Origin: Rhodobacterales bacterium
GTDB lineage: Bacteria > Pseudomonadota > Alphaproteobacteria > Rhodobacterales > Rhodobacteraceae
NCBI GenBank assembly: GCA_025362795.1
Contig: JANYFE010000090.1
Coordinates: 1-38,977 of the forward strand
Length of the DNA stretch: 38,977 bases
Reading direction: 5' to 3'
In this document: positions 1 to 22,065 of the stretch, in pieces
Layout: the number at the start of each line of letters is the position of its first letter
Position numbering within the stretch: the stretch's first letter is position 1
Program-made: the position numbers and the translations under genes
The notes under the pieces: model-generated
What the model was told of the DNA's origin: nothing
Database searches by the model: none
Seen by the model: only the letters and a program-made list of their open reading frames with translations

Positions 1-138
1 CGCATTCATCGCTTGACGGTAGAACCCCCGATCAGGCCTACTTCAACCTGCCGCCGCCTGTAACGCTGGCGGCGTAATCGAGGCGGAAAACCACTTAGAA
101 AACGCCCAGAACCTGTTCAGATAAACCGAACCACCTCT
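1..138 (+). mobile_element. 3' end of an IS3-family insertion sequence
   Basis: Seen: the last codons of a transposase (3-77), then a non-coding end that finishes in the inverted repeat CCGAACCACCTCT at 126-138. The reverse complement of that repeat, AGAGGTGGTTCGG, occurs exactly at 38838-38850. In both places it is followed five bases further in by CTGAACAG, giving 21 matches over 26 positions. This identifies the right terminus of an element whose left terminus is at the other edge of the window. The outermost base of the element is uncertain by about three bases, and no target duplication can be checked because the far side lies outside the window. The element interrupts a GH43 gene. Confidence 0.85.
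3..77 (+). CDS. IS3-family transposase OrfB, C-terminal end only
   Basis: A reading frame open from the window edge encodes 24 residues, starting HSSLDGRTPDQAYF and ending in VTLAA before a TAA at 75-77. The H-S-S-L-x-G-x-T-P-x-x-Y pattern is the conserved tail just after the DDE integrase core of IS3-family OrfB proteins. The catalytic residues lie upstream, outside the window. It is the same family as the orfA start at the right edge. The small size reflects the window boundary and is not evidence of decay. Confidence 0.85.
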   Translation, partial: HSSLDGRTPDQAYFNLPPPVTLAA

Positions 139-401
139 GTATAGACCGGCCAGAACCGCTCATCCGCGTAAGACAGACACGGCGCCCATACTCCGCAACT
201 GTCAGGGTTGCCGCGCATATCCAGCAAGTCCGGCCGGTTCAAGGGCCGCGCCACCAGCGTCCAGTTCACCAAGTCAGTCGAGTGATGAATCTGCACCCCC
301 GGGTACCATTCGAAAGTCGAGGTCGCGATGTAATAATCCGACCCAACCCGGCAAATAGATGGATCAGCATTGAACCCGCGCAGGATGGGATTCCCGATCA
401 T
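117..401 (-). pseudogene. GH43 beta-xylosidase/arabinofuranosidase-like, cut after about 87 codons by an IS
   Basis: The reading frame starts at ATG 401 with a GAGGG ribosome site. It encodes an unmistakable glycoside hydrolase family 43 N-terminus: [17 protein letters not shown] (the Asp of NADPS is the usual catalytic base), then [19 protein letters not shown] and [18 protein letters not shown]. Family members run to 300-550 residues; this one ends at 94. The homology stops at about position 140, where the IS inverted repeat begins, and the last six or seven codons and the TGA at 117-119 are IS sequence. The product cannot be active. It lies downstream of, and in the same direction as, the Gfo/GH2/ABC operon, so it was probably part of that glycoside-use locus, with its own AT-rich promoter region. 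Confidence 0.85.
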
Positions 402-520: not shown

Positions 521-1654
521 TCAGCGCAGCAGGGCCCGCGCCTCGTCCGGTCCCAAAGCCGCTGGCCGCGTGCAAGTCGTGGTCAGGGTCACGAACTGCC
601 CTGTGGCCCCCGAAGTCAGACAGGCGGTCATCACGTCCACTCCGTGCAGCGTCCGCTCCAGCGAGCAGCGGTGATCGCGTCCCTCCATCATCGCGGCGGC
701 CATATCCGCCAGCCCTGCCGTGCGGTAGTTGGCGAGCGGCCCGTGTTTGGCATGTTCCTGATTTGGCACGCCAAACGGATGATCCCAACCCGGAACCGCC
801 GATATCACCCCATCACGGCCTGCCACTTCGACCGTCCCGCCAAAGAAGTTGGGGTCCGGCACATACAGAGTGCCTTCAGTGCCATAGAACTCGAAATGGG
901 TCCGCCGATGGCTCCACACATCCCAAGATGTCACCAGATCGATCGCCGCCCCGCTGTGAAACTCTAGCAAAGCCCGGATATTGGTTGGCGTCTCGACCGC
1001 GATCTCTTCGCCAGCCCGTGCCCCAGATCCAATCGTTCGCGTTGGCGTGGCTGAGGTCGCCAGCGCACCGACCCGCTTCACCGGCCCCAAGAAGTTGATC
1101 AAGTTTGCCACATAATATGGACCGAGATCCAGCATCGGCCCCGCACCAGGCAAGAAGAAGAATTCCGGCGACGGATGCCAACCCTCTGGCCCATGGTTCT
1201 GCACGGCGGCCGTTCCTGCCGTCACGCTGCCGATGCGCCCCTCGTCAATCAGGGCCCGCGCCTGCTGATGCGATCCGCCGAGAAACGTATCCGGCGCGCA
1301 ACCGACTGACAGCCCTTTGGCCTTGGCGAGATCGCGCAGGGTTGTGCCCTGCTGCAGCGTGAGAACCAGCGGCTTCTCGGAATAGGCATGCTTGCCAGCC
1401 TCGAGGATTTGCTTGCTGATGCCATAATGTGCATCCGGGATCGTCAGGTTGATGATGATATCAACATCTTTGTTCGCCAGCAGATCATCCACTGACTGCG
1501 CCTTGACGCCAAACTCTGTCGCCCGGGCCGTCGCCGCCGCCATGTTCATATCGGCCACTGCTCGCACGTCCAGCCCCTTTAACAAAGGGGCAAGCCGCAG
1601 ATAGGCCGCCGAGATATTGCCACATCCAATGATGCCGATGCCCATGTTTGCCAT
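521..1654 (-). CDS. Gfo/Idh/MocA-family NAD(P)-dependent oxidoreductase
   Basis: Predicted cytosolic sugar or polyol dehydrogenase of 377 residues. Near the N-terminus GIGIIGCGNIS is the Rossmann dinucleotide-binding loop. SEKPL supplies the family's catalytic-site Lys. GAGPMLDLGPYYV replaces the usual D-x-x-x-H with Asp...Tyr, as in one large subgroup of the family. ATG 1654 is chosen because AAGGGG lies eight bases upstream; a TTG at 1660 and an ATG at 1645 are alternatives. The upstream TIM-barrel gene stops two bases before it, so the two are translationally coupled. It is the last gene of the ABC/GH2 operon. Its likely role is oxidising or reducing a sugar released or imported by that operon, probably in partnership with the adjacent TIM-barrel protein. 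The exact substrate is unknown. Confidence 0.85.
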   Translation of the reverse strand: MANMGIGIIGCGNISAAYLRLAPLLKGLDVRAVADMNMAAATARATEFGVKAQSVDDLLANKDVDIIINLTIPDAHYGISKQILEAGKHAYSEKPLVLTLQQGTTLRDLAKAKGLSVGCAPDTFLGGSHQQARALIDEGRIGSVTAGTAAVQNHGPEGWHPSPEFFFLPGAGPMLDLGPYYVANLINFLGPVKRVGALATSATPTRTIGSGARAGEEIAVETPTNIRALLEFHSGAAIDLVTSWDVWSHRRTHFEFYGTEGTLYVPDPNFFGGTVEVAGRDGVISAVPGWDHPFGVPNQEHAKHGPLANYRTAGLADMAAAMMEGRDHRCSLERTLHGVDVMTACLTSGATGQFVTLTTTCTRPAALGPDEARALLR

Positions 1655-1656
1655 GC

Positions 1657-2406
1657 TCAAAGCCCCTTGCCGGTTGCCAGCGACCGTGTCGCAAACCGCC
1701 GGTCGTCGGCGGGATTGTCATGCTCCATCACGTAATATGAAACACCCGCTGCCTTCAGCGCTGCCATGATGGTCTTCCAGTCAACTGTGCCGTGGCCAAC
1801 ATCGGCCCAACCATCCTCATCCAGTTTCTCACCTTTGGCCGCTATATCCTTGACATGTGCCGCAGAAATCCGTTTTCCAAATGCCGCAATCCAGAGCAGA
1901 GGATTGCCGCCACCGCGCACAACCCAAGCCACGTCCATCTCCCATTCCAGATTGGGACCGCCCTGCAGTATCTGGAACATCGGCACGGTACCGTCCGCAC
2001 AGCCCGCAAATTCGAAATCATGGTTGTGCCAACCAAAGCTAAGCCCCGCCGCCACCAGAGGTGCCCCGGCCTTTTCCAGCCTTGCGCCAAACGCCTTCCA
2101 CCCCGCACCGTCCGCCGGACGATCCGCCGGCATGACATGCGGGCAGTAGACCTTTTTCATACCCACGGCCTTGGCGACCTTGATTACGAAAGCCGGGTCG
2201 CTTTCAATCATCGGCAAACCGAAATGCCCTGTCGACATGGTCAACCCGTTCGTCTTCAGCCCATCCGCCAGCGTGGCGAGGGTTGCGTCATCTGAATACA
2301 GCCCCCCAAACCCCTCGGTGTCTTTATAGCCAACTGCGGCTAGCATTTTCAGCGTCGCGGGCAGAGGCCCGAAATTGCGGGAGGAGTAGAGTTGATAGCT
2401 GAACAT
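1657..2406 (-). CDS. Sugar phosphate isomerase/epimerase-like TIM-barrel protein
   Basis: A 249-residue protein of the AP-endonuclease-2/xylose-isomerase-like fold. Candidate metal-site elements appear in the usual order: WHNHDFEF, EWEMDVAWV, AAHVKDI and YYVMEHDN. The fold covers isomerases, epimerases, IolE-type dehydratases and the eliminases of keto-sugar pathways; the start (SYQLYSSRNFG) and the HNHDFEF motif resemble the IolE-like branch more than tagatose epimerases. It lies 12 bases after the GH2 gene and immediately before the Gfo/Idh/MocA gene. Pairing of these two families is typical of keto-sugar conversion. No signal peptide is seen, so it is cytosolic. The reaction is not assigned. 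Confidence 0.8.
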   Translation of the reverse strand: MFSYQLYSSRNFGPLPATLKMLAAVGYKDTEGFGGLYSDDATLATLADGLKTNGLTMSTGHFGLPMIESDPAFVIKVAKAVGMKKVYCPHVMPADRPADGAGWKAFGARLEKAGAPLVAAGLSFGWHNHDFEFAGCADGTVPMFQILQGGPNLEWEMDVAWVVRGGGNPLLWIAAFGKRISAAHVKDIAAKGEKLDEDGWADVGHGTVDWKTIMAALKAAGVSYYVMEHDNPADDRRFATRSLATGKGL

Positions 2407-2418
2407 GGTTCGGTCCTT

Positions 2419-4806
2419 TCAAAGCGGCCCGTAGGTCGCGGAATGCAGGTCACGCAGGGAGAATACGGGGGCGGGCCCGGGGGCAGCCGGCGTAAAGGTC
2501 AACGTCACGGGGTGCCCCGGAAACAGGGTCACGGCATTGTTGGAAAAACGCCCCGGTTGGTCGGATTCCAGCGCAACAAACAGCGCCAAAGCCTCCGCCG
2601 CAAGGGTAATTTCAAAGCAGCCATCCACCTCTTTGAGGCATTTTGTGACATTGGCGGGCAGCAAGTCATAAGTTTTGTAAGGTTTGGGCGCGAAGACGTC
2701 ACCGCCGAGCCGTGTGTCGCCCGTTGCCCAGACATAGGCGAGCATCTCGCCCTTGTGCAACGCGCCAGATGGAACCCTGACGACCATAACCGCCGCCTCT
2801 GGGCCAACCGGCAAAGTCTGACGCACGAGGTCGCGCGTCGTGCCATCCATCGCGACGGCGACCGCGTTGACGGTCAGTGTGACCAGCGCGGCGGTGTCGT
2901 TCACGGCCCGCAGCTCGATGCCATTCTTGACCGGCACTGCCGAAACGAAGATGGGTTTGTAGAAGGCTTGTGACATGTGGTGCAGCAGCTTCCAGCCTCC
3001 GCCATGATCCAGTGAAGCCCAGGAACACACCGGCCATGTGTCGTTCAACTGCCAGATCAGCGTACCCATGCAATGCGGTTTCAGGCTGCGCCAATGGGTG
3101 ACGGCGGTCTTGATCGCCAGCCCTTGCTGGACCTGAGACAGATAGACAAAATTCTCGAAATCCACAGGAAAGCGGAAGTAGCGGAACATCGTCTCGGCAA
3201 TCCGTGCGTTGCCCCCCGCGTTCTTTTGATGGCTCTCCATCACAGGAGCGGCGATGTTGAAATCGACGGGGTTGGCGAACTTTCGGATCACGTTCATCGA
3301 CGGATAACTTTGAAAGCCAAACTCTGAACAAAATCGAGGGCTTACATCGCGGTAGTGGTCAAAGTCGCGACCCTCGTGCCACACGCTCCAAAAGTGCATG
3401 TCGCCCTTGCTATCATCGTGCCACGCATCGCCAAAATCCATTGGCCCCGGCGAAGGACTGGACGGCCACCAAACAGCTCCGGGAACCGCCGCTTTCAAAG
3501 CCTGCTCGATCGTCCGGTTGAGCCGATCATAACCCACCAGATACAGATCGCGGTTCGCCCGCGTTTCCGGGAACCAAGTCAACGCGCCGATCAGTTCGTT
3601 GTCACCGCACCACAGCACCAGCGACGCGTGATGGTGCAGACGTTGTGCATTTTCGCGGACCTCAATCGCCACATCCGCCAAAAACACTTCATCAGCCGGG
3701 TAAATGTGACAGGAAAACATGAAGTCCTGCCAGACCATCAGCCCAAGCTCATCGCAGAGATCATAGAACCAGTCGGCCTCGTACCGCCCGCCGCCCCAGA
3801 CCCGCAGCATGTTCATGTTGGCATCGACCGCCGATTGCAGCAGCCCTCGCGTGTCCGCAGGATTGATCCGCCCCGCAAGTGCATCCTGCGGGATCCAGTT
3901 CGCCCCCTTGCAGAACACGTCGCGCCCGTTGATCCGAACCTTGAACCCCAAACCCGCCGCGTCTTTTTCCGTGACCAGTTCTGCAGACCGCAACCCGATC
4001 CGGCGGGTCACGACGTGCGGCCCCAACGTCACGGTGAGGTCATGCAAGACTTGCACACCTTGCCCGGCCGGCCACCACAGTCGGGGATCGTCGATCACCA
4101 GCGACGCAACCGCACGACCCTCCACCACCCGCGCCACTACCGCGACGCCAGCGAGATCAAAGGCAACCTCGCCGTCACCGTCAACCGCCGCGTCAATCGT
4201 CACGACGGCCCGACCCGGGGTATGCGATTGAGTGACCACCACCGAGGAGATCCGGTCCGAGATCGCTGGTTCCAAGTAAAGGTCGCCATATACTCCAAAC
4301 GTTGCCAGCGCGATGTTCCAGTCCCAGCCAAAATCGCAGCTGGGCTTGCGCAACATATTCCCGTTATGGATGGGCGTGTTGTTGGCGCTGAACGGCACAA
4401 AATACCGTTGCGCCGCCTGTCGGCGCGCTGCCTCGACGGCCGGAGAGCGGAACGTGATCGCAATATCGTTGTGGCCGACTTTCAGTGCTTCAGACAGATC
4501 GATTCGGTACGACCGGAACATATTGTCCGACGCCAGCACCAGAACGCCGTTCACCGCAATCTCGGCCACAGTGTCCAACATTGACACCACCAGTACCTGA
4601 TCGACCCGGTCCACTTCAAACGACCGCTTCACGATCCAGTCGCGCTGACATATCCAGCGCAGGCCATATTCATTTCGTCCGAAATACGGGTCCGGGATCG
4701 CACCCGCTTGGCACAAGGCGTCAATCCCGTCGCCGGGCATGGTCATCAAGACGACCGTACCGCCGCTTTCTTCCGAAAGCAGCCACTGGCCCGCAAGATC
4801 TAGCAT
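2419..4806 (-). CDS. Glycoside hydrolase family 2, beta-mannosidase-like
   Basis: A 795-residue enzyme of the size usual for GH2 beta-mannosidases. The N-terminal sugar-binding-like domain (about 1-180) includes FGWDWNIALATFGVYG. An immunoglobulin-like domain follows (about 185-275), then the TIM barrel with MNMLRVWGGGRYE. WCGDNE (399-404) provides the acid/base Glu404, and FCSEFGFQS (492-500) the nucleophile Glu495. These are established GH2 landmarks. There is no signal peptide, so it acts in the cytosol on imported oligosaccharide or glycoside, probably hydrolysing terminal beta-mannosides. Its start is two bases after the ABC ATPase stop, which ties it to transport. The preference for beta-mannose over other beta-sugars is inferred from overall resemblance only. 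Confidence 0.85.
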   Translation of the reverse strand: MLDLAGQWLLSEESGGTVVLMTMPGDGIDALCQAGAIPDPYFGRNEYGLRWICQRDWIVKRSFEVDRVDQVLVVSMLDTVAEIAVNGVLVLASDNMFRSYRIDLSEALKVGHNDIAITFRSPAVEAARRQAAQRYFVPFSANNTPIHNGNMLRKPSCDFGWDWNIALATFGVYGDLYLEPAISDRISSVVVTQSHTPGRAVVTIDAAVDGDGEVAFDLAGVAVVARVVEGRAVASLVIDDPRLWWPAGQGVQVLHDLTVTLGPHVVTRRIGLRSAELVTEKDAAGLGFKVRINGRDVFCKGANWIPQDALAGRINPADTRGLLQSAVDANMNMLRVWGGGRYEADWFYDLCDELGLMVWQDFMFSCHIYPADEVFLADVAIEVRENAQRLHHHASLVLWCGDNELIGALTWFPETRANRDLYLVGYDRLNRTIEQALKAAVPGAVWWPSSPSPGPMDFGDAWHDDSKGDMHFWSVWHEGRDFDHYRDVSPRFCSEFGFQSYPSMNVIRKFANPVDFNIAAPVMESHQKNAGGNARIAETMFRYFRFPVDFENFVYLSQVQQGLAIKTAVTHWRSLKPHCMGTLIWQLNDTWPVCSWASLDHGGGWKLLHHMSQAFYKPIFVSAVPVKNGIELRAVNDTAALVTLTVNAVAVAMDGTTRDLVRQTLPVGPEAAVMVVRVPSGALHKGEMLAYVWATGDTRLGGDVFAPKPYKTYDLLPANVTKCLKEVDGCFEITLAAEALALFVALESDQPGRFSNNAVTLFPGHPVTLTFTPAAPGPAPVFSLRDLHSATYGPL

Positions 4807-4808
4807 GA

Positions 4809-5885
4809 TCAGATCCGCAGCTCCGACGTTTCGTCAAATAGTGAAGATTTGGCAATGTCTACCTTCAGATGGACCTTCGTGCCAGCAACCGGACGATGTT
4901 CGACCGGAACCCGAACCGAGATTTGTTTGCCCTCTGCCTCCAGCCAAACCAGACTGTCAGCACCCATCGGCTCGTCAATCTCGACCACAGCCGGAATGGT
5001 CAGCCCGGGAACGGCTTCGTCCACGATGGCCAAATGTTCCGGGCGTAGTCCGATAATGGCCTTGGGCCGGTCCATGATTGCGCCGCCCTCATAGCCGACC
5101 AAATTCAACGTGACGTCGCCAAACTTGAACGCCTTACCACCACCAACCGTTGTGCCCTTGATAAAATTCATCGCTGGCGATCCGATAAAGCCCGCGACGA
5201 ACAAGTTCGACGGGCGGTTGTAAATTGTTTGCGGTGCGTCCAGTTGCTGAATGATGCCGCCGCGCATGATAGCGATGCGGTCGGCCAAAGTCAGCGCCTC
5301 GATCTGATCGTGGGTGACATAGATCATCGTGTTTTTAAGGCGGTTGTGCAGGCGCTTCAATTCAACCCTAAGTTCGCTGCGCAGCTTGGCGTCCAGGTTG
5401 GACAACGGCTCGTCAAACAGGAACACATCGACATCCCGCACCAAAGCGCGACCAATCGCCACCCGCTGGCGTTGTCCACCAGACAGGGCACCCGGCTTGC
5501 GATCCAGCAGCGGCCCGATTTGCAGTATTTCGGACGCGCGTTGCACCCGCTTTTCGATTTCTTCCTTGGGCAGCTTGGCGATTTTCAGGCCAAAGCTCAG
5601 GTTACCCCGCACGGTCATCTGCGGATAAAGCGCATAGGACTGAAACACCATGCCAATGCCGCGCTCCGACGGCTCCGCCCAAGTGACGTTCTTGCCCTTG
5701 ATGTGAATCTGCCCTTCCGACAGCTCCAGCAAACCCGCCAGGCAGTTCAGCAATGTAGACTTGCCACAGCCAGACGGCCCCAAAAGTACGATGAATTCGC
5801 CCTCCTCCACATCAAGGTTCAGATTTTTGAGAACCTCCGCGGCGCCGAATTTCAGGCTCAGGTTTTGGACAGAAACAGAGTGCAT
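4809..5885 (-). CDS. Sugar ABC transporter ATP-binding protein (UgpC/MalK type)
   Basis: A 358-residue ATPase energising the CUT1 importer encoded just upstream. Walker A is GPSGCGKST (36-44), the signature LSGGQ (134-138), Walker B FLFDEP (155-160), and the switch His lies in VTHDQ (about 190). The C-terminal third carries the OB-fold regulatory region typical of MalK/UgpC. The ATG at 5885 is preferred, with AAGGG upstream; an upstream in-frame start at 5915 would overlap the preceding permease by 26 bases and adds ten unconserved residues. The permease stop lies four bases upstream. Such ATPases often serve several importers, but the tight operon argues for this one. Confidence 0.92.
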   Translation of the reverse strand: MHSVSVQNLSLKFGAAEVLKNLNLDVEEGEFIVLLGPSGCGKSTLLNCLAGLLELSEGQIHIKGKNVTWAEPSERGIGMVFQSYALYPQMTVRGNLSFGLKIAKLPKEEIEKRVQRASEILQIGPLLDRKPGALSGGQRQRVAIGRALVRDVDVFLFDEPLSNLDAKLRSELRVELKRLHNRLKNTMIYVTHDQIEALTLADRIAIMRGGIIQQLDAPQTIYNRPSNLFVAGFIGSPAMNFIKGTTVGGGKAFKFGDVTLNLVGYEGGAIMDRPKAIIGLRPEHLAIVDEAVPGLTIPAVVEIDEPMGADSLVWLEAEGKQISVRVPVEHRPVAGTKVHLKVDIAKSSLFDETSELRI

Positions 5886-5889
5886 GTGA

Positions 5890-6792
5890 TCAACCCTTGA
5901 CGGCGCCGGCTGCAATGCCGCGCACGAAGTACTTGCCAGAAACGAAGTAGATGGTCAGCGGCACGATGCCGGTCAGGATCGTGGCCGCCATGTCGACGTT
6001 ATAGGCTTTGCCACCCATTGAGGAGTTGACGATGTTGTTCAACTGCACCGTCATCGGATAGTTGGTCGGTCCGGCGTAAATCACGCCGAAGAGGAAGTCA
6101 TTCCAGATGCCAGTCACCTGCAGGATCACGGAAACTGTGAAGATCGGCACCGACATTGGCACGAAAATTCGGAAAAATATGCCCCAATACCCAGCGCCGT
6201 CGACCCGCGCTGCTTTGAACAGCTCTTGGGGTAGCGACGCAAAGTAGTTGCGAAACAAAAGCGTCTGGATTGGCAGACCAAAGATGGTGTGCACCAGAAT
6301 GACCGCCCAAAGCGTCGAAAATATGCCCAGTTCACGGGTGATGATGACCAACGGATAGATCATCACCACATAGGGAATGAACGACCCCAGCAGCAGGATG
6401 GTAAAGAACACTTCCGAGAATTTGAATGGCCAGTTGGCCAGTGAATAGCCCGTCACTGACGCCACCGCGATCGATACGATGGTAGAAGGCACCGTGATCT
6501 TGACCGAATTCCAGAAGCCGACCTTGATGCCCTCGCAGTAAAGCCCGGTACAGGCCGAATCCCACGCCTTGGACCAGGCATCGAACGTCGGGTGCAGAGT
6601 TGGCACAAAGATGTTGCCTGACTGGACTTCTGCCATGCTTTTGAACGAGGTCATGATCATGATGTACAGCGGCAACAAGAAGAACAGTGCACATACGATC
6701 AATACGGCATAAACGACGAAGCGTTCCCACGTGATGAACGGTTTCGGCTTTGCGCCAGATGGGGTTGTGGCGAACGAGGCTGCATTGGTCAT
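5890..6792 (-). CDS. Sugar ABC transporter permease (MalG-like)
   Basis: An inner-membrane subunit of 300 residues with about six hydrophobic segments. The first is VVYAVLIVCALFFLLPLYI, followed by TSFKS, and the protein ends GIAAGAVKG as MalG-type permeases do. The cytoplasmic EAA loop is readable as ELFKAARVDGAGYWGIFFRI. ATG 6792 has GAGGAG upstream; the longer frame to 6843 would run into the previous permease. The MalF-like gene stops 11 bases upstream. The two permeases should form the heterodimeric channel through which the sugar delivered by the binding protein crosses the membrane. Confidence 0.92.
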   Translation of the reverse strand: MTNAASFATTPSGAKPKPFITWERFVVYAVLIVCALFFLLPLYIMIMTSFKSMAEVQSGNIFVPTLHPTFDAWSKAWDSACTGLYCEGIKVGFWNSVKITVPSTIVSIAVASVTGYSLANWPFKFSEVFFTILLLGSFIPYVVMIYPLVIITRELGIFSTLWAVILVHTIFGLPIQTLLFRNYFASLPQELFKAARVDGAGYWGIFFRIFVPMSVPIFTVSVILQVTGIWNDFLFGVIYAGPTNYPMTVQLNNIVNSSMGGKAYNVDMAATILTGIVPLTIYFVSGKYFVRGIAAGAVKG

Positions 6793-6803
6793 ATCATTGC
6801 TCC

Positions 6804-7757
6804 TCAAGCCTGCGATTTCTTGCCAAATTCCATACGGATCCACGGGATCAGAACGATCGCCATCGCCACTAGCATGACGGTCGATGCCGACAATGATTGC
6901 CCAAGGTTGGCCGAGAAGTTCTGATAAATGTACCGCGATGGCACGTCGGAAGAGATACCCGGGCCGCCATCAGTGATTGCCACGACCAGATCATAGATCC
7001 GCACCGCACCCGAGGTCACAATGACAAAGATCGTGACAAGAACAGGCTTCATCATGGGAATGACGATCTGGATATACGTGCGCCAGGCCGGAATGCCGTC
7101 TACCTTGGAGGCTTTCCAGATGTCTTCGTCGATGCCACGCAATCCCGCGAGCATAAGTGCCATGACAAAGCCGGTGCCCTGCCAGATGCCGGCGATAACA
7201 ATGGCATACATCACCATCTTGCGGTCGGCGATCCAGCCAAAGCTGAAACTGTCCCATCCCAGCTGCCGCATGGACGCCTGCAACCCGTATTCCGGCGACA
7301 TGATCCACGCCCAGACGTGCCCCGTCACGACGAACGACAGCGCAAAAGGATAGAGATAGATTGTGCGGAACACACCTTCTGCCCTGATCTTCTGATCCAT
7401 CAGCACCGCTAGCAAAAAGCCAAGAGAAACAGCGATTGCAATCGAAAGCACCGCATAAGTCACCATATTTGGCAGCGCACCTGTGCAGGTGAACCGCCAG
7501 TCTGCCATGCCGATATGCGTGATGGCCGGGCAACTCATCCAGCGGTCGGTGTTAAACAGCCGCCTGTAATTCGCCAATCCAACAAACCCGTCGATCCATT
7601 CTTTTGGAGTGAAAATCGGCAAAATCTTGATGTTGGTGAACGAAAACAAGACAGTCCAGATGGTCCCGCAAACAAACACCCCCAACACGATCAGCATCAT
7701 CGGCAAGGACGCGGCCTTGGACCATAGATTGCGGAATAGGGGGTTTGGTCTGTCCAT
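6804..7757 (-). CDS. Sugar ABC transporter permease (MalF-like)
   Basis: A 317-residue inner-membrane protein of the CUT1 permease family. It has an N-terminal hydrophobic segment (LPMMLIVLGVFVCGTIWTVL), further membrane spans, and an EAA-like loop DIWKASKVDGIPAWRTYIQI that contacts the ATPase. A periplasmic insert between the first two spans contains the cysteines of SCPAITHIG and FTCTG. It follows the binding-protein gene after a 93-base gap holding a strong stem-loop, which probably sets lower expression of the membrane subunits relative to the binding protein. The start ATG 7757 has GGTAGG upstream. Confidence 0.92.
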   Translation of the reverse strand: MDRPNPLFRNLWSKAASLPMMLIVLGVFVCGTIWTVLFSFTNIKILPIFTPKEWIDGFVGLANYRRLFNTDRWMSCPAITHIGMADWRFTCTGALPNMVTYAVLSIAIAVSLGFLLAVLMDQKIRAEGVFRTIYLYPFALSFVVTGHVWAWIMSPEYGLQASMRQLGWDSFSFGWIADRKMVMYAIVIAGIWQGTGFVMALMLAGLRGIDEDIWKASKVDGIPAWRTYIQIVIPMMKPVLVTIFVIVTSGAVRIYDLVVAITDGGPGISSDVPSRYIYQNFSANLGQSLSASTVMLVAMAIVLIPWIRMEFGKKSQA

Positions 7758-7792
7758 TGGCCTACCGTGTTGCTTGAGGAAAGTGAAGAAAC

Positions 7793-7822
7793 AGGCCCGG
7801 CCGCCAGATGGGGGCCGGACCT
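7793..7822 (-). other. Intra-operon stem-loop between binding-protein and permease genes
   Basis: AGGCCCGGCC and GGCCGGACCT pair at nine of ten positions, with two more inner pairs around an AGAT loop. On the minus strand it is followed by GTTTCTTC. A hairpin at this point in binding-protein-dependent operons commonly stops part of transcription or protects the 3' end of the binding-protein message; which applies here cannot be told from sequence. Confidence 0.55.
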
Positions 7823-7850
7823 GCTGTTCAGTCAGTTGGTCAGCGAAGGC

Positions 7851-9089
7851 TCACTTAGGTGCGGCTTCGATGATCGCTGCGAACTTTGCCTGTGCGTCGG
7901 CCACAGACATGTCGGTGTTTGCAAAAAACTCATTCAGCAGATCATTGATCTGGTTGAGTGAGTCACGGTCGATCATCTGCGAGCCGCTCGGGAACACCGC
8001 GGTCGAATGGTCCAGGATTTCAAGACCTTTCTTCATGCAGTCGTTGGCCTTCGACAGGTCAACGTCGGCGCGCATCGGCAGCGAGCCCTTTTTCAGGTTG
8101 AACGCAACCTGAACGTCCTTGGTAACCAGCGTCGAAGCCAGCGTCAACTGAGCGGCGGTGATCGCCGGATCAGCGTTCTTCGGGAAGTAGAAGACGTCGC
8201 CGCCGGTATCCAGAACCGGGGTCAGACCCAGGCCCGGAAGGCAATCGAAGTCCTTGCCGGCAACCAGACCTGCAACCGCGAATTCGCCGCCAGCCCAGTC
8301 TCCCATGATGTTGGCAGCAGCTTTGCCCTGAATGACCAGGCTCACAGCTTCGTTCCACTGCGGAACGATTTTGTCAGCCGGGGCAAACTGCCGTGCGGCA
8401 GCAATCGCCTCGAACACCTTGGTGAACTCCGGCCCTTTGGCGATCGTCATGTCGCGGTCTTTGTAGACCTTGACGTAGTTGTCGACGCCAGCCACCGCGA
8501 CCATCAGGTCACCAGCCAGCAGTCCGATTGCCCAACCTTGCGCCAGCGACAGCGGCTGGATGCCCTTTGCCTGCAACGCAGGCGCCGCTGCGATCAGCTC
8601 GTTGTAGTTGGTCGGCACGGCCATACCGTTGTCTTCGAACACTTTGCGGTTGACCCACATCCACTGACCCGAATGCAGGTTGACCGGTACGCAATAGACC
8701 TTGCCGTCAACAGTGCAGGATGCCAACTGCGATGCCGGGCGCAGGATGTGTGCCCAATCTTCCTTGGTCGCAAGATCGGTGATGTCCTGCATCAGGCCGG
8801 CCTTGATCAGTTCGTCAGCGTCTTTGCCGGGGTTAAGCTGGGTCGCACCCATCGGGTTGCCGCCCATGATCCGGCTGATGATGATCGGACGCGCTGTGTC
8901 GCTCGAACCGGCGATCGCGCCGTCGACCCAGTGGTTGCCAGTCGCGTCAAACGCCTTGGCAAACTCGGCGACCGCGGCGGATTCGCCACCAGAAGTCCAC
9001 CAATGGGTGACTTCCAGATCCGTGGCCATTGCGACCGACGGCAGTGCTACCGAAGCGCAAAGCGCTGCGGCCAATTTCCAGTTCTTCAT
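7851..9089 (-). CDS. ABC transporter sugar-binding protein, family 1
   Basis: A 412-residue periplasmic protein and the first gene of the import operon. The N-terminus MKNWKLAAALCASVALPSVAMA is a Sec signal peptide with cleavage likely after AMA. The mature start LEVTHWWTSGGESAAV is the pattern of the glucose/mannose-type family 1 binding proteins. The start has GGGAGGA seven bases upstream. Two LacI-type operators lie 17 to 51 bases upstream of the start, so expression is probably repressed by the divergent LacI-family gene. Context (GH2 beta-mannosidase, broken GH43) suggests a plant- or algal-derived oligosaccharide, but the ligand is not readable from sequence. Confidence 0.92.
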   Translation of the reverse strand: MKNWKLAAALCASVALPSVAMATDLEVTHWWTSGGESAAVAEFAKAFDATGNHWVDGAIAGSSDTARPIIISRIMGGNPMGATQLNPGKDADELIKAGLMQDITDLATKEDWAHILRPASQLASCTVDGKVYCVPVNLHSGQWMWVNRKVFEDNGMAVPTNYNELIAAAPALQAKGIQPLSLAQGWAIGLLAGDLMVAVAGVDNYVKVYKDRDMTIAKGPEFTKVFEAIAAARQFAPADKIVPQWNEAVSLVIQGKAAANIMGDWAGGEFAVAGLVAGKDFDCLPGLGLTPVLDTGGDVFYFPKNADPAITAAQLTLASTLVTKDVQVAFNLKKGSLPMRADVDLSKANDCMKKGLEILDHSTAVFPSGSQMIDRDSLNQINDLLNEFFANTDMSVADAQAKFAAIIEAAPK

Positions 9090-9105
9090 GTAGTCCTCCC
9101 AGTTT

Positions 9106-9119
9106 CTAAATCGTTATAG
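9106..9119. promoter_or_regulatory. LacI-type operator, proximal imperfect site
   Basis: CTAAATCGTTATAG matches the distal site in 12 of 14 positions and keeps the central CG step; five of its seven base pairs are symmetric. It begins 17 bases upstream of the binding-protein start codon, so an occupied site would block transcription or early elongation. Its centre is exactly 21 bp from that of the distal site. Confidence 0.65.
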
Positions 9120-9126
9120 TCCGATC

Positions 9127-9140
9127 CTATAACGTTATAG
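9127..9140. promoter_or_regulatory. LacI-type operator, distal perfect site
   Basis: CTATAACGTTATAG is a perfect 14-bp palindrome with the central CG and AACGTT core characteristic of GalR/CytR-like LacI-family operators. The neighbouring LacI-family protein has an I-A pair before TVSR in its recognition helix, close to the V-A of GalR-type proteins, which fits an AACGTT core. The assignment to that protein is an inference. Confidence 0.7.
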
Positions 9141-9301
9141 TTTTTTCGATCAAGCAATCTTTTCGCTTGCCGTCAGCGATTTTCAGGGCGCTCAATAAGG
9201 TTGAATGATCCTGAAAATAGTGCCGCCTCATGCCCTCGCGTCTACCTTTCTGCACCGCAACATCGCCCTCATCTAACCGCAGGGTTGGCATTTTCCCCTG
9301 C

Positions 9302-9315
9302 GGAAAACGGTTTCC
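9302..9315. promoter_or_regulatory. Second-type LacI-family operator-like palindrome
   Basis: GGAAAACGGTTTCC is symmetric at six of seven pairs around a central CG. It lies 130 bp upstream of the LacI-family start codon and differs clearly from the CTATAACGTTATAG sites. It could be an autoregulatory site, or a site for another LacI-family protein encoded elsewhere. Confidence 0.45.
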
Positions 9316-9444
9316 GTTTAGGCGTTGCTGCACCGTTCTGCAGGCCACTGGTGCCGTTGGCAGACTTGACCGCTGCGCTTGCAAACACCCCGGATTGCGC
9401 CCGCTGATTCGCGGCGCCAGACGAATCGCGGGGGATGAATTTAC

Positions 9445-10467
9445 ATGACCGGCCTCCACATCCTGCCCCCTGATTCGGAACGCCCGACACTTAAAACCAT
9501 CGCCGCCGAGACCGGCCTTGCCATCGCGACCGTCAGTCGTGCGCTGAAAGATGCGTCCGATATTGGCGAGGAGACCAAGCGCCGCGTCCGCGAAACCGCC
9601 GAACGGCTGGGCTATCGGCCGAACCGCGCTGGCGTCCGCCTGCGCACCGGCAAAACCAATGTCATAGCGCTCACCATGTCGACAGAAGCCGACGTGATGA
9701 ACCACACGTCGCGCCTGATCTATTCGATTGCTGAAGCGTTACGCGGCACGTCCTACCATCTGGTCGTGATGCCGTTTTTCCCCGATCAGGATCCGATGGA
9801 CCCGATCCGCTACATTGTTGAAACCGGTTCTGCCGATGGCATCTTGATGAACCAGACTACGGCCGACGATCCCCGAGTCCGTTATCTGGCCGAACACAAC
9901 TTCCCGTTCGCAACCCATGGCCGCACGTCGATGGGTCTCGATCACCCCTATTTCGACTTCGACAACGAAGAGTTCGCCCGGATCGGCGTTCGTGCTCTCA
10001 AGGCCAAAGGTCGCAAGCGCCTGATTCTGGTGCCCCCGCCCCGGTCGCAAAGTTATGCCGGACACATGATCACGGGTTTTGCAGACGAGGCGGCAACCCA
10101 GGGCCTGACATTCGAGGTGATGGAAGACGTTACCAGCGATTCCGGCGCCGGCATAGTAGAGGCTGCTTTTGCGCGCCGCATGGCTGCGGACCCGTTAATC
10201 GACGGCATCCTCGCGGGGTCCACCACCTCTGCGATGGCAGCGGTTGCCGGCTCTGAACAAGTCGGTCGCGTGATAGGTCATGATTTTGATATTGTGGCAA
10301 AAGAAGCAATTACCTTCTTGCACCGTTTCCGTCGCGAAATCATCGTGGTAGAAGAGAACGTCGGCCGGGCCGGCAATTTTCTGGCCCGAGCCGTCATGGC
10401 CGCAATCGAGCGGCGCGCACCGGAACACGGCCAGTTTCTGGACCGACCCGATCACGTACAACGATAA
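9445..10467 (+). CDS. LacI-family transcriptional regulator (AglR-like)
   Basis: A 340-residue repressor-type protein. The N-terminal helix-turn-helix (about residues 14-60) reads LKTIAAETGLAIATVSRAL, followed by the hinge helix RLGYRPNRAGVRLRTG. From about 70 onward is a periplasmic-binding-protein-like effector domain (NVIALTMSTEADVM). It resembles alphaproteobacterial AglR-type sugar regulators. It is divergent from the CUT1/GH2 operon and first in a tight operon with two TIM-barrel genes and an oxidoreductase (16-base gap to the next gene), so it probably controls both directions. The effector is probably the imported sugar or a keto-derivative. The start ATG 9445 is preceded by GCGGGGGA. 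Confidence 0.9.
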   Translation: MTGLHILPPDSERPTLKTIAAETGLAIATVSRALKDASDIGEETKRRVRETAERLGYRPNRAGVRLRTGKTNVIALTMSTEADVMNHTSRLIYSIAEALRGTSYHLVVMPFFPDQDPMDPIRYIVETGSADGILMNQTTADDPRVRYLAEHNFPFATHGRTSMGLDHPYFDFDNEEFARIGVRALKAKGRKRLILVPPPRSQSYAGHMITGFADEAATQGLTFEVMEDVTSDSGAGIVEAAFARRMAADPLIDGILAGSTTSAMAAVAGSEQVGRVIGHDFDIVAKEAITFLHRFRREIIVVEENVGRAGNFLARAVMAAIERRAPEHGQFLDRPDHVQR

Positions 10468-10482
10468 GTCCTGGAGGACGCC

Positions 10483-11538
10483 ATGAAGACGATCAAAGGC
10501 CCAGCGCTGTTTCTGGCACAGTTCGCGGGAGACACCGCACCTTTCAACTCTTTCAAATCCATTACCAAATGGGCCGGCGACATCGGCTACAAGGGCGTAC
10601 AGGTGCCCTCATGGGACGCCAGGCTCATCGACCTCGACAAAGCCGCCAGTTCCAAGACTTATTGCGACGAACTCAAGGGCATCGCTGCCGAAAATGGCGT
10701 GCAGATCACCGAGCTTTCGACTCACCTGCAAGGCCAGCTTGTCGCCGTACATCCCGCCTATGATACCGCCTTCGACGGTTTCGCTGCACCCGCCGTGCGT
10801 GCCAATCCCAAGGCTCGGCAAGAGTGGGCGGTCGATCAGGTCAAAAAGGCGCTGACCGCATCGAAAAACCTTGGTCTGACCGAGCAGGCGACTTTTTCAG
10901 GTGCCTTGGCATGGCCCTATATCTACCCGTGGCCGCAGCGTCCCGCGGGCTTGGTCGAAGAGGCCTTTGACGAACTCGCCCGCCGCTGGACTCCGATCCT
11001 AAACTTTGCCGACAGCCAAGGTATCGATCTGTGCTACGAAATTCACCCCGGTGAAGATCTGCACGACGGCATCAGCTTCGAGATGTTTCTGGAGCGTGTC
11101 AAAAACCACCCCCGCGCCAATATGCTGTACGACCCCAGCCACTACGTTCTGCAACACCTTGATTACCTTGAACATTTAGACATTTACCACGACCGCATCA
11201 AGATGTTCCACGTCAAGGACGCCGAACTGAACCCAACCGGTCGTCAAGGCGTCTACGGCGGCTTCCAGTCCTGGATCAACCGCGCTGGACGCTTCCGCAG
11301 CTTGGGCGACGGTCAGGTCGATTTTGCCGGCATTTTCTCCAAACTCACCCAGCACGACTTCTCAGGCTGGGCCGTGGTCGAATGGGAATGCTGCATCAAG
11401 CACCCCGAAGACGGCGCCCGCGAAGGCGCTGAATTCGTCGCTGCTCACATCATCCGCGTCACCGAACGCGCCTTTGACGACTTTGCCGACGCAGGGTCCG
11501 ACATCGCCGCTAACCGGAAAATGCTTGGCTTGTCATGA
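10483..11538 (+). CDS. Sugar phosphate isomerase/epimerase-like TIM-barrel protein
   Basis: A 351-residue cytosolic TIM-barrel enzyme, longer than the usual 260-300. Metal-ligand motifs appear in order: CYEIHPGEDLHDG (Glu), MLYDPSHYVLQH (Asp), MFHVKDAEL (His) and WAVVEWEC (Glu), consistent with a divalent metal centre. The extra length includes the aromatic segment TFSGALAWPYIYPWPQRP around residues 138-155, probably part of the substrate pocket. It has a CTGGAGGA ribosome site and overlaps the next TIM-barrel gene by four bases. Members next to Gfo/Idh/MocA dehydrogenases include enzymes acting on 3-keto-sugars by elimination or hydration; that role is plausible here but unproven. Confidence 0.85.
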   Translation: MKTIKGPALFLAQFAGDTAPFNSFKSITKWAGDIGYKGVQVPSWDARLIDLDKAASSKTYCDELKGIAAENGVQITELSTHLQGQLVAVHPAYDTAFDGFAAPAVRANPKARQEWAVDQVKKALTASKNLGLTEQATFSGALAWPYIYPWPQRPAGLVEEAFDELARRWTPILNFADSQGIDLCYEIHPGEDLHDGISFEMFLERVKNHPRANMLYDPSHYVLQHLDYLEHLDIYHDRIKMFHVKDAELNPTGRQGVYGGFQSWINRAGRFRSLGDGQVDFAGIFSKLTQHDFSGWAVVEWECCIKHPEDGAREGAEFVAAHIIRVTERAFDDFADAGSDIAANRKMLGLS

Positions 11539-12371
11539 AGATCGGCTGCAACCTTTTGCTCTGGTCCAGTCGCCTTGGTCCAGAGCATCTGCCGATTTTG
11601 CGGCTGCTGAAGTCGCTTGGTTACGATGGGGTAGAGGTTCCTGTTTTCTCCGGCACCCCGGCCGAACAGGTCGAGATCGGCCGCATGGTCGCAGGTGAGG
11701 GCCTGATTTCCAGCATGGTCGCCACCATGAAACCCGGCGCCGATCCGTTGTCTGACGACCCGACCGAACGCGCCGCCGGGGCCGAACATCACAAGTGGCT
11801 GGTTGACTGCGCCGTTGCCTTGCAAGCCAAGGTAATTTGCGGCCCCTTCCACCAACCCCTCGCTCAGTTCTCCGGCAGTGGAATCACCGCCAAGGAATGG
11901 GACCGGATGGTCGAAAGCCAGACAGCAATGGCTGATTACGCAGGCGAAATCCGGCTCGCCATCGAACCCGTCAACCGCTTCGAATGTTACGCGCTCAACA
12001 CCGCCGCTCAGGCCGCGCATCTCGCCGCAACCGTAAACCGCCCCAACTACGGCTACCTCCACGATACATTCCACGCAAATATCGAGGAAAAAGACCCGAT
12101 CGCGGCCCTAAAGACTCATCTCCCCGCGATCACCCATTTCCACGTCAGCGAAAACGACCGCGGCACGCCGGGTCAGGGTCACGCCGCCATCCTGCCCGCA
12201 CTCAAAGTGCTGAAAGCTGCAAACTTCCCGTATTGGATTTCGGTCGAGGCATTCGGCTTTGCTTTGCCCGACATCGCCGCCGCGACCAAAATCTGGCGGC
12301 CGCTTTTTGATTCTGAAACCCAACTCGTCACCGATGCGATCGCCCTGATCCGCATGGGCTGGACCGAATAG
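11535..12371 (+). CDS. D-tagatose/D-psicose 3-epimerase-like TIM-barrel protein
   Basis: A 278-residue protein with motifs of the ketose 3-epimerase group: LAIEPVNRFEC (catalytic and metal-binding Glu), YLHDTFHANIEE (Asp), HFHVSENDRGTPGQGH (His and the Gly-rich loop) and ISVEAFG (second Glu). Family enzymes use Mn2+ or Co2+ and epimerise C3 of free ketoses; some relatives act on keto-glycosides. ATGA overlap with the preceding gene couples translation. With the LacI regulator and Gfo/Idh/MocA gene it forms a four-gene operon. No ketose-producing enzyme is evident nearby, so a keto-sugar substrate produced by the dehydrogenases is an alternative to a free ketose. Confidence 0.85.
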   Translation: MKIGCNLLLWSSRLGPEHLPILRLLKSLGYDGVEVPVFSGTPAEQVEIGRMVAGEGLISSMVATMKPGADPLSDDPTERAAGAEHHKWLVDCAVALQAKVICGPFHQPLAQFSGSGITAKEWDRMVESQTAMADYAGEIRLAIEPVNRFECYALNTAAQAAHLAATVNRPNYGYLHDTFHANIEEKDPIAALKTHLPAITHFHVSENDRGTPGQGHAAILPALKVLKAANFPYWISVEAFGFALPDIAAATKIWRPLFDSETQLVTDAIALIRMGWTE

Positions 12372-12380
12372 GAGACCATC

Positions 12381-13541
12381 ATGGCCATTACCTCAGCCCA
12401 CGTTGCCCGCCCCGCCCGCATCCGTCTCGGAATGGTTGGCGGCGGTCGCGGCGCGTTCATCGGGGCCGTCCACCGCATTGCCGCCCGGCTGGATGACCAA
12501 TACGAACTGGTCGCCGGGGCGTTTTCTTCCGACCCCGACCGCGCGGCAGCCTCTGCCGCCGACCTCGGCGTCGCCCGCTCCTATGCGTCGTTCGAGGAAA
12601 TGGCGCAGAAAGAATCCCGGCGCAAGGACGGGATCGAGGCTGTCGCCATTGTCACCCCCAACCACATGCATGCGCCTGCCGCCCTGCCTTTCCTGAAACG
12701 CGGCATTCATGTCATCTGTGACAAACCCCTGACCGCCACTCTGCAAGAAGCCAAAAAACTCGCCAAAGCGATCGAGGCATCGGGCACCGTCTTCGCCCTG
12801 ACCCACAATTACACCGGCTACCCGATGATCCGCCAAGCCCGCGAAATGGTGGCAGCCAGCGAACTCGGTGACATCCGCCTCGTCAATGTCGAATACGCGC
12901 AAGACTGGCTCGCTGAACCGGTGGACAACAAACAAGCCGACTGGCGCACTGACCCCGCCCGCTCCGGGGCTGGCGGTTCTACCGGCGACATCGGCACTCA
13001 CGCGTTCAACCTTTCAAACTTCGTGTCCGGCCTGACCCTCGATACCCTCGCCGCCGACCTGCAATCTTTCGTCCCAGGCAGGCGGGTTGATGACAACGCC
13101 AACGTCCTTTTGCGCTATACCTCCGGGGCGCGTGGCATGTTGTGGTGCAGTCAGGTCGCGTCGGGCCTTGAAAACGGCCTCCGTTTGCGGATGTTCGGAA
13201 CGAAAGCTGGCATCGAATGGGCCCAGGAAAACCCCAACTACCTGACCGTCATGCCGCTGGGCAAACCGCACTACCGCCTGACGCGCGGCGGCCACGGCAC
13301 GGGTGACGCGGCCGCCCGCATGACCCGGGTTCCCGCAGGCCACCCGGAAGGCTATCTCGAAGGTTTCGCCAATATCTATGCCGAAGCCGCCCTCGCTATT
13401 GTCGCCCGCCGCGACGGTACACCCTTGGACAAAGCCGTCACTTTCCCCGGTGTGAAAGAGGGACTGGAGGGCGTGGCCTTTGTCGACGCTTGCGTCCGAT
13501 CCTCCAAGCGCAACGGCGCATGGACCAGCCTCGCGCTGTGA
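12381..13541 (+). CDS. Gfo/Idh/MocA-family oxidoreductase with DKP in place of EKP
   Basis: A 386-residue NAD(P)-dependent dehydrogenase. The Rossmann loop is [17 protein letters not shown] (about 17-33). The active-site segment reads [11 protein letters not shown], with Asp replacing the usual Glu of EKP but Lys retained. [14 protein letters not shown] gives the D-x-x-x-H pair. A long C-terminal region with [16 protein letters not shown] is shared with the proteins at 22966-24123 and 30620-31765, suggesting a common subfamily. It is last in the LacI-TIM-TIM-Gfo operon, after a nine-base gap containing AGGAG, and is followed by a long hairpin. It likely oxidises or reduces a hydroxyl of a hexose or glycoside; the substrate is unknown. 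Confidence 0.88.
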
Positions 13542-18072: not shown

Positions 18073-18900
18073 TCAGCTGAGACTTGCAATGACGATCCGC
18101 GCCGCAGCCATCATCGGGTCGATCGTGTCTTTCAGCAGTTGATTGCGGTCAAAACGGTCTGGGTCGTGCGCCAGGGCGGTGCGCAGCGACTGGCCGAATA
18201 CCATCCGAAGCTCTGTGCCGATATTGAATTTGCAGACCGCCGTCTGGCGGGCAAGCACACGGCGCTGCCCGGGTTCGATCCCCGAACCCCCATGCAGCAC
18301 CAAAGGCAGATTTGGGGCTGCGGTCTGAATCTCTTGCAAGAGCGCCCTGTCGACTTTGGCGGAAGGTTCGGTCATCAGATGGCTGTTGCCAACCGAAACG
18401 GCCAATGCGTCGACACCGGTTTCGATCACAAAACGCGCCACTTCGGCCGGATCAGTGCCAGCAGAGACCATCCGGTTGTGATAACCGACGACCCCCAGCT
18501 CGGCCTCGACGGACACGCGGTGACGGTGGGCCAAGTCGACAATCTCACGTGTCAGCGCGATGTTATCCGCCAAAGGCAACGCTGAGCCGTCATACATGAC
18601 AGAGGTGAAGCCGCAGTCGATGGCCGCCTGACATACGGCAAGGCTTTCGCCATGATCCAGATGCGCCACGACGGGCACCGAAGTGGCGTCGCCCAAGGTT
18701 CGGAACATAGCACCCAAGACTGCGAGTGGAATGTGGTCACGGCATCCGGGGCCTGCTTGCAGGATGATCGGTCGCTGCTCCGCCTCGGCTGCACGCACAA
18801 AGGCCAGTGCATCTTCCCACCCCAACACCACAAGTGCCGCGACTGCGGTGCCGTCGGTCAGGCACGGGGTCAGCACATCGGCCAAAGAAGCTATTGTCAT
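18073..18900 (-). CDS. iolJ: Class II aldolase, IolJ-like
   Basis: A 275-residue zinc-dependent aldolase of the fructose/tagatose-bisphosphate family. AHLDHG (79-84) gives the catalytic Asp region and a zinc His; further motifs are VMYDGSALP, SVEAELG, AVSVGNSHL, VLHGGSGI and KFNIGTELR. In the inositol pathway IolJ cleaves 2-deoxy-5-keto-gluconate 6-phosphate to dihydroxyacetone phosphate and malonate semialdehyde. Overlap of four bases with iolB and co-transcription with iolC strongly favour this over a glycolytic or tagatose role. Start ATG 18900 lies within the end of iolB. Family-wide motifs cannot by themselves tell the substrates apart. Confidence 0.8.
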   Translation of the reverse strand: MTIASLADVLTPCLTDGTAVAALVVLGWEDALAFVRAAEAEQRPIILQAGPGCRDHIPLAVLGAMFRTLGDATSVPVVAHLDHGESLAVCQAAIDCGFTSVMYDGSALPLADNIALTREIVDLAHRHRVSVEAELGVVGYHNRMVSAGTDPAEVARFVIETGVDALAVSVGNSHLMTEPSAKVDRALLQEIQTAAPNLPLVLHGGSGIEPGQRRVLARQTAVCKFNIGTELRMVFGQSLRTALAHDPDRFDRNQLLKDTIDPMMAAARIVIASLS

Positions 18901-19739: not shown

Positions 19740-19760
19740 GGCTGGCCCTTCCGCGAGAAG

Positions 19761-20726: not shown

Positions 20727-20882
20727 CAGATGCCCGCCCCATGCGGGAGATCGTGGGTCATAGAGGAGACTGGCGCTGCCCAAAAACTCAAAACCAGCGT
20801 CCGCGAAACGACTAACGCGGAATGCGCGTCGGGGAGGTTTGAGGCCATGCGTTCACCTTTTTCCGGAGGGCACGAAATTGCA

Positions 20883-20910
20883 TTGACGCCGTCTTGGAGG
20901 ATACGATACT
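20883..20910 (+). promoter_or_regulatory. Sigma-70-type promoter of the 20952 operon
   Basis: TTGACG (20883-20888) and GATACT (20905-20910) are separated by 16 bases. They match five of six and four of six positions of the -35 and -10 consensus. The predicted start point, near 20917, falls inside the 18-bp palindrome that follows. Confidence 0.55.
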
Positions 20911-20913
20911 TAT

Positions 20914-20931: not shown

Positions 20932-20951
20932 TCATTTAAAAGGACATCGCC

Positions 20952-22052: not shown

Positions 22053-22065
22053 AAGGACACACGAC

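Follow-up and report, generated by a model that had tools for sequence, protein, structure and literature searches.

A LacI-associated locus of a Rhodobacterales bacterium with a predicted oxidation-elimination route for beta-linked disaccharides

The 38,977-nucleotide contig JANYFE010000090.1 of a Rhodobacterales bacterium (assembly GCA_025362795.1), the whole of which we refer to as the window, carries at positions 521-13541 two gene sets pointing away from each other around the gene for a LacI-family regulator (Table 1). One set encodes a CUT1-type ATP-binding cassette (ABC) importer with its solute-binding protein (SBP), a glycoside hydrolase of family 2 (GH2), a PF01261 TIM barrel termed OGE and a Gfo/Idh/MocA protein, Gfo1. 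The other encodes two further PF01261 barrels, HYD and EPI, and a second Gfo/Idh/MocA protein, Gfo2. A preliminary description of this DNA had listed the same inventory in the same divergent arrangement, and we found all of it present. Our analysis makes it quite probable that the locus is under LacI control and serves to take up and degrade beta-linked disaccharides, the glucosyl link being cut by oxidation and elimination.

Table 1. Features of the locus and of the adjoining contig edge
Feature	Position	Strand	Families, matches and remarks
End of IS3-family-like insertion element, contig edge	1-125		plasmid-record matches
GH43 beta-xylosidase, N-terminal 94-residue fragment	117-401	-	PF04616, 118 bits
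Gfo1, predicted NAD-dependent glucoside 3-dehydrogenase	521-1660	-	PF01408 + PF22725
OGE, predicted Mn-dependent 3-keto-O-beta-glucoside beta-eliminase	1657-2406	-	PF01261 TIM barrel; 8bvk
GH2 beta-mannosidase, predicted cytoplasmic	2419-4806	-	PF22666 + PF17753
ABC importer ATPase, MalK/UgpC type	4809-5915	-	PF00005, PF17912, PF08402
CUT1-type permease	5890-6843	-	PF00528; GlcU-like 160 bits, below cut-off 340
CUT1-type permease	6804-7757	-	PF00528; GlcT-like 86.6 bits, below cut-off 360
Solute-binding protein (SBP)	7851-9089	-	PF01547; signal-like N-terminus (by eye)
Second, imperfect operator-like site	9106-9119		2 mismatches to CTATAACGTTATAG
Palindrome CTATAACGTTATAG, predicted LacI operator	9127-9140
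LacI-family regulator	9445-10467	+	PF00356, PF00532
HYD, predicted 2-hydroxy-3-keto-glucal hydratase	10483-11538	+	PF01261 TIM barrel; 8ro4
EPI, ketose-3-epimerase-type TIM barrel, accessory	11535-12371	+	PF01261; 5zfs
Gfo2, predicted 3-keto-glucose reductase	12381-13541	+	3v5n; Gfo of L151

The gene neighbourhood is conserved among relatives, which indicates that the grouping at the locus is not due to chance. We compared 80 named loci, the best 80 of 584 confirmed ones and all fairly close kin; loci without room for the gene in question were dropped, leaving 78 of the 80 for Gfo1, 72 for the gene upstream of OGE and 77 for a family 43 glycoside hydrolase (GH43). The operon SBP-permease-permease-ATPase-(GH2)-OGE-Gfo1 recurs in both Rhodobacterales and Rhizobiales, the closest named OGE relative (83% identity) belonging to a metagenome-assembled genome of Pseudorhodobacter antarcticus. 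As the nearest named OGE relatives are of that group, the bacterium is probably a member of the Rhodobacteraceae close to Pseudorhodobacter. All 78 relatives have the Gfo1 gene after OGE, at a distance of no more than 200 bases. GH2 was scored as upstream of OGE if it lay at most 900 bases away, as it does in 59 of 72 relatives (in 8 of those 59 across a gap of more than 300 bases); in the remaining 13 the gene upstream, within 250 bases, is that of the ATPase and not GH2. On the other side of the locus, HYD and Gfo2 are both in view in 26 named relatives and adjacent in every one of them; one further relative shows only a cut HYD.

Among solved structures OGE has one strong match, 8bvk (E = 8.6e-42), which is AtOGE, the 3-keto-O-glucoside beta-eliminase of Agrobacterium (PMC10628242). 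The reported metal ligands of AtOGE are H132, D163, H189 and, weakly, E233, with H134 as the catalytic residue (PMC10628242). All five are kept in the window, where H127, H129, D158, H184 and E228 of OGE align with H132, H134, D163, H189 and E233, respectively. Judged by its sequence, OGE therefore has the His/Asp/His/Glu metal site and the catalytic His found in the eliminase of the Agrobacterium-type operon. Across an alignment of 14 proteins, H127, H129, D158 and H184 never vary, and E228 is conserved in at least 90%; the exception is the protein of Rhizobium rhizogenes (locus L154), whose end reads unlike the other rows. The numbering of 8bvk is 25 lower than that of the full-length frame in R. 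nepotum (locus L151), taking the start as read. AtOGE cuts 3'-keto-cellobiose and not 3'-keto-maltose (PMC10628242).

The second barrel, HYD, matches structure 8ro4 at 69.4% identity over 350 columns (E = 9.6e-177). Since 8ro4 was deposited under the name 2-hydroxy-3-keto-glucal hydratase, the same activity is predicted for HYD. Gfo2, in turn, matches 3v5n (E = 7.6e-164), and its homologues in L151 (64%) and L154 (63%) sit together with a hydratase and an OGE-type protein (34 and 36% identical to OGE, respectively). These operons have a GMC flavoprotein next door, along with a Gluconate_2-dh3 subunit; the family scan was made on L154, and the L151 flavoprotein is 96% identical to the GlycDH-type flavoprotein of L154. 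According to preliminary evidence, the Agrobacterium hydratase releases 3-keto-glucose, which the neighbouring Gfo protein reduces to glucose (PMC10628242). By analogy, and in view of its constant adjacency to HYD, Gfo2 is predicted to be the corresponding reductase. The proposed route as a whole is also favoured by the occurrence of the genes across 61 genomes, OGE being present in 23 and HYD in 22 of those 23. The tally uses cut-offs of our own choosing (E up to 1e-20 for OGE, below 1e-80 for HYD), leaves out weak HYD hits such as those in G011 and G051, includes one HYD with in-frame stop codons (G029), and the association is confounded by kinship.

Both Gfo/Idh/MocA proteins and PF01261 barrels are also at home in the catabolism of inositols, and the locus might accordingly be read as an inositol, inosose or ketose pathway, in which the Gfo proteins would be polyol dehydrogenases and the barrels would act as inosose dehydratases or epimerases. 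Beyond the overlap of families, there are weak hits to IolG and IolE, and the contig carries a separate cluster of inositol type at 18-25 kb. However, the two IolG hits score 54.4 and 68.8 bits where the cut-off is 355, the IolE hits 30.1 and 69.7 bits where it is 290, and the barrel matches to an eliminase and a hydratase are specific. With these equivalog cut-offs missed, inositol catabolism by IolG and IolE was rejected, and we regard such a pathway as very improbable. The sequences thus do not suggest plain inositol or epimerase enzymes, the outcome that the preliminary description had named as speaking against it: the scores fall far short of the IolG and IolE cut-offs, and two of the barrels have specific matches, one to an eliminase and one to a hydratase. 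Two further assignments of the Gfo proteins were rejected, namely levoglucosan dehydrogenase LgdA (48.9 and 110 bits against a cut-off of 650) and the Bacteroides BT2158/BT2159 glycoside 3-dehydrogenases (NF058561 and NF058563 at most 41.4 bits, against 750 and 650).

The oxidising step is where the window departs from the Agrobacterium-type operon. There, a flavin-dependent GMC dehydrogenase with a Gluconate_2-dh3 subunit is the oxidant, whereas in the window a Gfo protein is predicted to take this part. The predicted structure of Gfo1 (mean pLDDT 89.6) resembles scyllo-inositol dehydrogenase, levoglucosan dehydrogenase and DgpA1; together with its position, this fold suggests that Gfo1 is an NAD-dependent glucoside 3-dehydrogenase. 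It probably replaces the flavin glucoside dehydrogenase, as the locus has no flavin GlycDH with a Gluconate_2-dh3 subunit and a GlycDH search found none in this genome at E 0.001. As a control, the GlycDH query, which comes from G064, recovers its own source sequence, a 96% match in G063 and relatives of 28-36% in four other genomes, and nothing in G067. A flavin GlycDH elsewhere in the genome was considered and rejected, because even the best of the five GMC_oxred_C hits matches the L154 GlycDH at no better than E 0.009. The family of the small subunit (PF13618, Gluconate_2-dh3) is likewise absent from the genome; it is present in 2 of 14 control genomes. Separately, a 47% relative of Gfo1 in R. 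nepotum (L152, 15573-16595) has a hydratase/Gfo2 pair nearby, along with a different importer, so that Gfo1-type enzymes may serve several modules.

The two versions also appear to differ in location. The OGE-type proteins of L151 and L154 have a signal-like N-terminus of about 25-30 residues that is missing in the window OGE, where no signal peptide was seen (here and below, signal peptides were judged by eye, without a predictor). By this difference, the flavin version would work outside the cytoplasm, and the version of the window inside it.

The third barrel fits less readily. EPI has the fold of 5zfs (TM-score 0.90 at 29% identity), and in 14 aligned rows its E144, D177 and E238 are invariant, with H203 at 90% or more. 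We take these four residues to be the metal ligands of ketose 3-epimerases. With fold and E/D/H/E residues in common with D-allulose, D-tagatose and L-ribulose 3-epimerases, EPI may have an activity of this kind. It differs from them in that identity to the best match is only about 29% and the D-psicose 3-epimerase equivalog cut-off is missed (108 against 300 bits). Relatives of EPI stand between HYD and Gfo2, as in the window, in G009 (75%) and L047 (59%), and after Gfo2 in L086 (42%); an EPI-type gene occurs in 2 of the 26 named loci showing HYD and Gfo2. Among the 61 genomes, 16 have EPI relatives (E up to 1e-20), four of which, at about 50%, lie beside a different Gfo. By residues and fold, EPI is thus an accessory protein of ketose-3-epimerase type. 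The earlier idea that all three barrels belong to one route is not supported, given this epimerase-type character and the rarity of EPI beside HYD and Gfo2.

What the importer carries is suggested by Sinorhizobium. The window SBP, whose nearest solved chains are 8hqq and 5dvf, is 57% identical to the SBP of S. meliloti 4H41 (L124). The gene order of L124 (LacI, SBP, two permeases, ATPase, GH2, OGE, Gfo1) is the published order of SMc04255-SMc04259, and residue T24 of SMc04259 fits as well, so that we take L124 to be the SMc04259 locus. The window shares with L124 both this layout, OGE and Gfo1 included, and the operator pattern in the intergenic region described below; S. meliloti 4H41 differs in having HYD and Gfo2 elsewhere in its genome (L153). 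SMc04259 is a CUT1 binding protein next to the predicted beta-mannosidase SMc04255, and gentiobiose induces it up to 19-fold. Its Kd is 33 nM for cellobiose and 53 nM for gentiobiose, while maltose, lactose, lactulose, glucose, mannose and xylose elicited no response (PMC3454389). The passages of that paper drawn on here deal only with the transporter and the beta-mannosidase. Since the related Sinorhizobium protein takes cellobiose and gentiobiose, beta-diglucosides are, by analogy, the likely substrates here.

These ligands argue against the tentative proposal of the preliminary description that mannosides are the main target of the oxidoreductive arm. A mannoside-first scheme nevertheless deserves consideration: beta-mannobiose or glucosyl-mannose derived from glucomannan would be imported, GH2 would be the main enzyme, and Gfo1 and OGE would act on 3-keto-mannosides, which would give the same glucal because elimination erases the configuration at C2. 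GH2 is a beta-mannosidase by sequence and precedes OGE in most relatives (59 of 72), and the authors of the Sinorhizobium study proposed glucosyl-mannose as the true ligand of SMc04259 (PMC3454389). In addition, a gene of the D-lyxose isomerase family (PF07385) stands between GH2 and OGE at L082:9197-9931 and in six other rhizobial loci (7 of 80), an arrangement that would fit mannose release by GH2; the gene reaches 235 bits against the NCBIfam D-lyxose/D-mannose isomerase cut-off of 350. On the other hand, the 13 relatives with the ATPase at this place keep OGE without GH2 beside it, and the related binding protein binds beta-diglucosides and does not respond to mannose, although glucosyl-mannose was not among the sugars tried (PMC3454389). 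On balance, we find this scheme rather doubtful. Degradation of aryl or other natural-product beta-glucosides, as proposed for Agrobacterium, seems unlikely. It would accord with the preference of AtOGE for 3-keto-phlorizin over 3'-keto-cellobiose (PMC10628242), but the type of importer, together with GH2 and GH43, suggests oligosaccharides, and the related binding protein takes beta-diglucosides, aryl glucosides apparently not being among the sugars tried on it (PMC3454389).

The hydrolases complete the catabolic set. GH2 matches the beta-mannosidase structures 2vjx and 2je8 (E = 5.4e-130) and contains catalytic-type motifs at E404 and E495, presumably the catalytic Glu pair; no signal peptide was seen. 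The GH43 of the preliminary description is a real gene, although it lies outside 521-13541 and is represented only by a 94-residue N-terminal fragment. Sequence matching the fragment at 74-88% identity is present in 51 of 80 relatives. Of 77 loci, 28 have the GH43 start at most 400 bases after Gfo1 and 23 have it further off; no start was seen in the other 26, among them L124 of S. meliloti. The gene, broken in the window, is intact in relatives such as L046, L076, L088 and L090, and the intact protein of L046 has PF04616 and PF17851 and is closest to solved beta-xylosidases. Bases 1-125 of the contig match 279 plasmid records, 265 of them over at least 80% of the length. Ten of these records were listed: two carry an IS3 family transposase at this place, one a transposase and six no feature, and one record is unannotated. 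The last gene of the operon is thus broken in this assembly, at or beside a probable insertion element.

Regulation by the LacI protein is suggested by the perfect palindrome CTATAACGTTATAG, which lies 37 bases upstream of the SBP start codon and has an imperfect copy at a distance of 21 bases. No other site in the genome comes within one mismatch of the palindrome. Among the 59 relatives with a divergent LacI/SBP pair in view, to which the count was confined, 44 have the degenerate form CTRTAACGNTAYAG between the two genes, and 47 of 50 plus-strand matches to CTRTAACGNTAYAG in 1.48 Mb of relatives fall there. This position in relatives, a stronger point than rarity, makes CTATAACGTTATAG probably the operator of the window LacI. 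A promoter scan returned no promoters and one terminator-like call overlapping the operator.

Taken together, these observations suggest the following course of events. The CUT1-type importer would bring cellobiose- or gentiobiose-like sugars into the cytoplasm, where Gfo1 would oxidise the non-reducing glucosyl unit at C3 with NAD+. The Mn-dependent OGE would then remove the other sugar by beta-elimination, a reaction demonstrated on its Agrobacterium homologue, leaving 2-hydroxy-3-keto-D-glucal. HYD would add water to yield 3-keto-D-glucose, and Gfo2 would reduce it to D-glucose with NADH, so that the cofactor would be recycled; on homologues both steps have preliminary support. GH2 would hydrolyse beta-mannosyl ends and GH43, where intact as in relatives, beta-xylosyl ends. 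One importer, whose ligands are suggested by those of the related binding protein, would thus serve three kinds of end sugar.

Several observations weigh against this picture. OGE shares only 34-36% identity with its L151 and L154 counterparts, six of the 61 genomes have HYD without OGE, and EPI finds no explanation in the proposed route. Gfo1 is at most 23% identical to its structural matches, among the 50 listed; with identity so low, its predicted reaction follows from position and fold. The binding-protein ligands come from a 57% relative, and the published end residue of SMc04259, D441, clashes with the 411-residue protein of L124, although T24 fits. As for the operator, 15 of the 59 relatives do not have the pattern in exact form, and a reversed control of CTATAACGTTATAG is also present once in the genome, so that the rarity of CTATAACGTTATAG by itself proves little. 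Finally, the genome has one GH1 and three GH3 matches, so that hydrolytic beta-glucosidases may be present, and OGE is associated positively, not negatively, with GH1 (15 of 23 OGE genomes). On these grounds we rejected the possibility that the route replaces beta-glucosidases in this organism; it would rather add to the hydrolases.

Of the systems already described, the GlycDH-OGE-HYD-Gfo operon of Agrobacterium tumefaciens follows the same sequence of oxidation, beta-elimination, hydration and reduction (PMC10628242). The operons of L151 and L154 resemble it and contain an eliminase, a hydratase (69-70%) and a Gfo protein homologous to those of the window; the window differs in that no route enzyme looks exported and that a CUT1-type importer and GH2 are part of the locus. 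The chemistry, the eliminase and the hydratase are therefore already known, and the proposal of an oxidoreductive pathway stands as to the kind of reactions but not as a new route, this chemistry having been published for Agrobacterium in 2023 (PMC10628242). The levoglucosan system LgdA-LgdB1-LgdB2-LgdC likewise combines two Gfo proteins, two PF01261 barrels and an ABC importer in analogous steps (PMC10066097, PMC7676230), but acts on a different substrate, and neither window Gfo passes the levoglucosan dehydrogenase cut-off. In C-glycoside cleavage by DgpA and CGE, C3 oxidation is also followed by elimination by a Mn-dependent barrel; the DgpA chains are 19-20% identical to Gfo1. Compared with CGE, AtOGE, which OGE resembles, works without a second subunit and on O-glucosides only (PMC10628242). 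No CGE beta-subunit gene was named among the scanned products of 521-13541, in a scan that included no dedicated CGE model. The Caulobacter system of LacABC and a DUF1080 3-ketoglycoside hydrolase, too, uses disaccharides via a 3-keto intermediate, but it is periplasmic and consists of a membrane-bound dehydrogenase and the DUF1080 protein (PMC9007349); DUF1080 gave no hit among the scanned proteins of 521-13541. We found no paper on this cytoplasmic version, in which a Gfo oxidiser, a CUT1-type beta-diglucoside importer and GH2/GH43 are combined, nor on its link to the Sinorhizobium locus, although the version may already stand in 2024 Angewandte or Nature papers. The 2024 Nature paper reportedly describes a broad-specificity route.

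The rest of the contig is also rich in sugar genes, with six Gfo/Idh/MocA genes in total. The inositol-type cluster (18073-25115) comprises IolC (314 bits, above the cut-off of 300), an IolB-like protein, a class II aldolase, two Gfo proteins, an IolE-like barrel and, by eye, a LacI-like protein (24120-25115). A third sugar cluster (28135-38259) encodes a short-chain dehydrogenase/reductase (SDR), an RpiR-type regulator, a Peripla_BP_4 binding protein, a TIM barrel, two Gfo proteins and, by eye, a second SDR and ABC importer parts. Between the two lies a 346-residue open frame (26857-27897) with no Pfam or PADLOC match; PADLOC, run on two proteins at 26-28 kb, gave none. Searches for Rfam families and tRNAs returned no matches.

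We are evenly divided over a broader proposal, according to which the locus would represent a widespread, wholly cytoplasmic and NAD-balanced module for beta-disaccharides in Rhodobacterales and Rhizobiales, dealing with glucosyl ends by redox chemistry, mannosyl ends by GH2 and xylosyl ends by GH43. In a few members the EPI-type barrel may epimerise 3-keto intermediates and so feed other sugars in. If the interpretation is correct, many genes of Rhodobacterales and Rhizobiales that now bear only a broad family label, Gfo/Idh/MocA oxidoreductase or sugar phosphate isomerase/epimerase, would gain a function. It would also offer an answer to a small puzzle dating from 2012, namely why a beta-mannosidase stands beside the beta-diglucoside (cellobiose/gentiobiose) transporter of Sinorhizobium, and would make Sinorhizobium a genetically tractable test bed for the redox cutting of sugar links despite hydrolases at hand.

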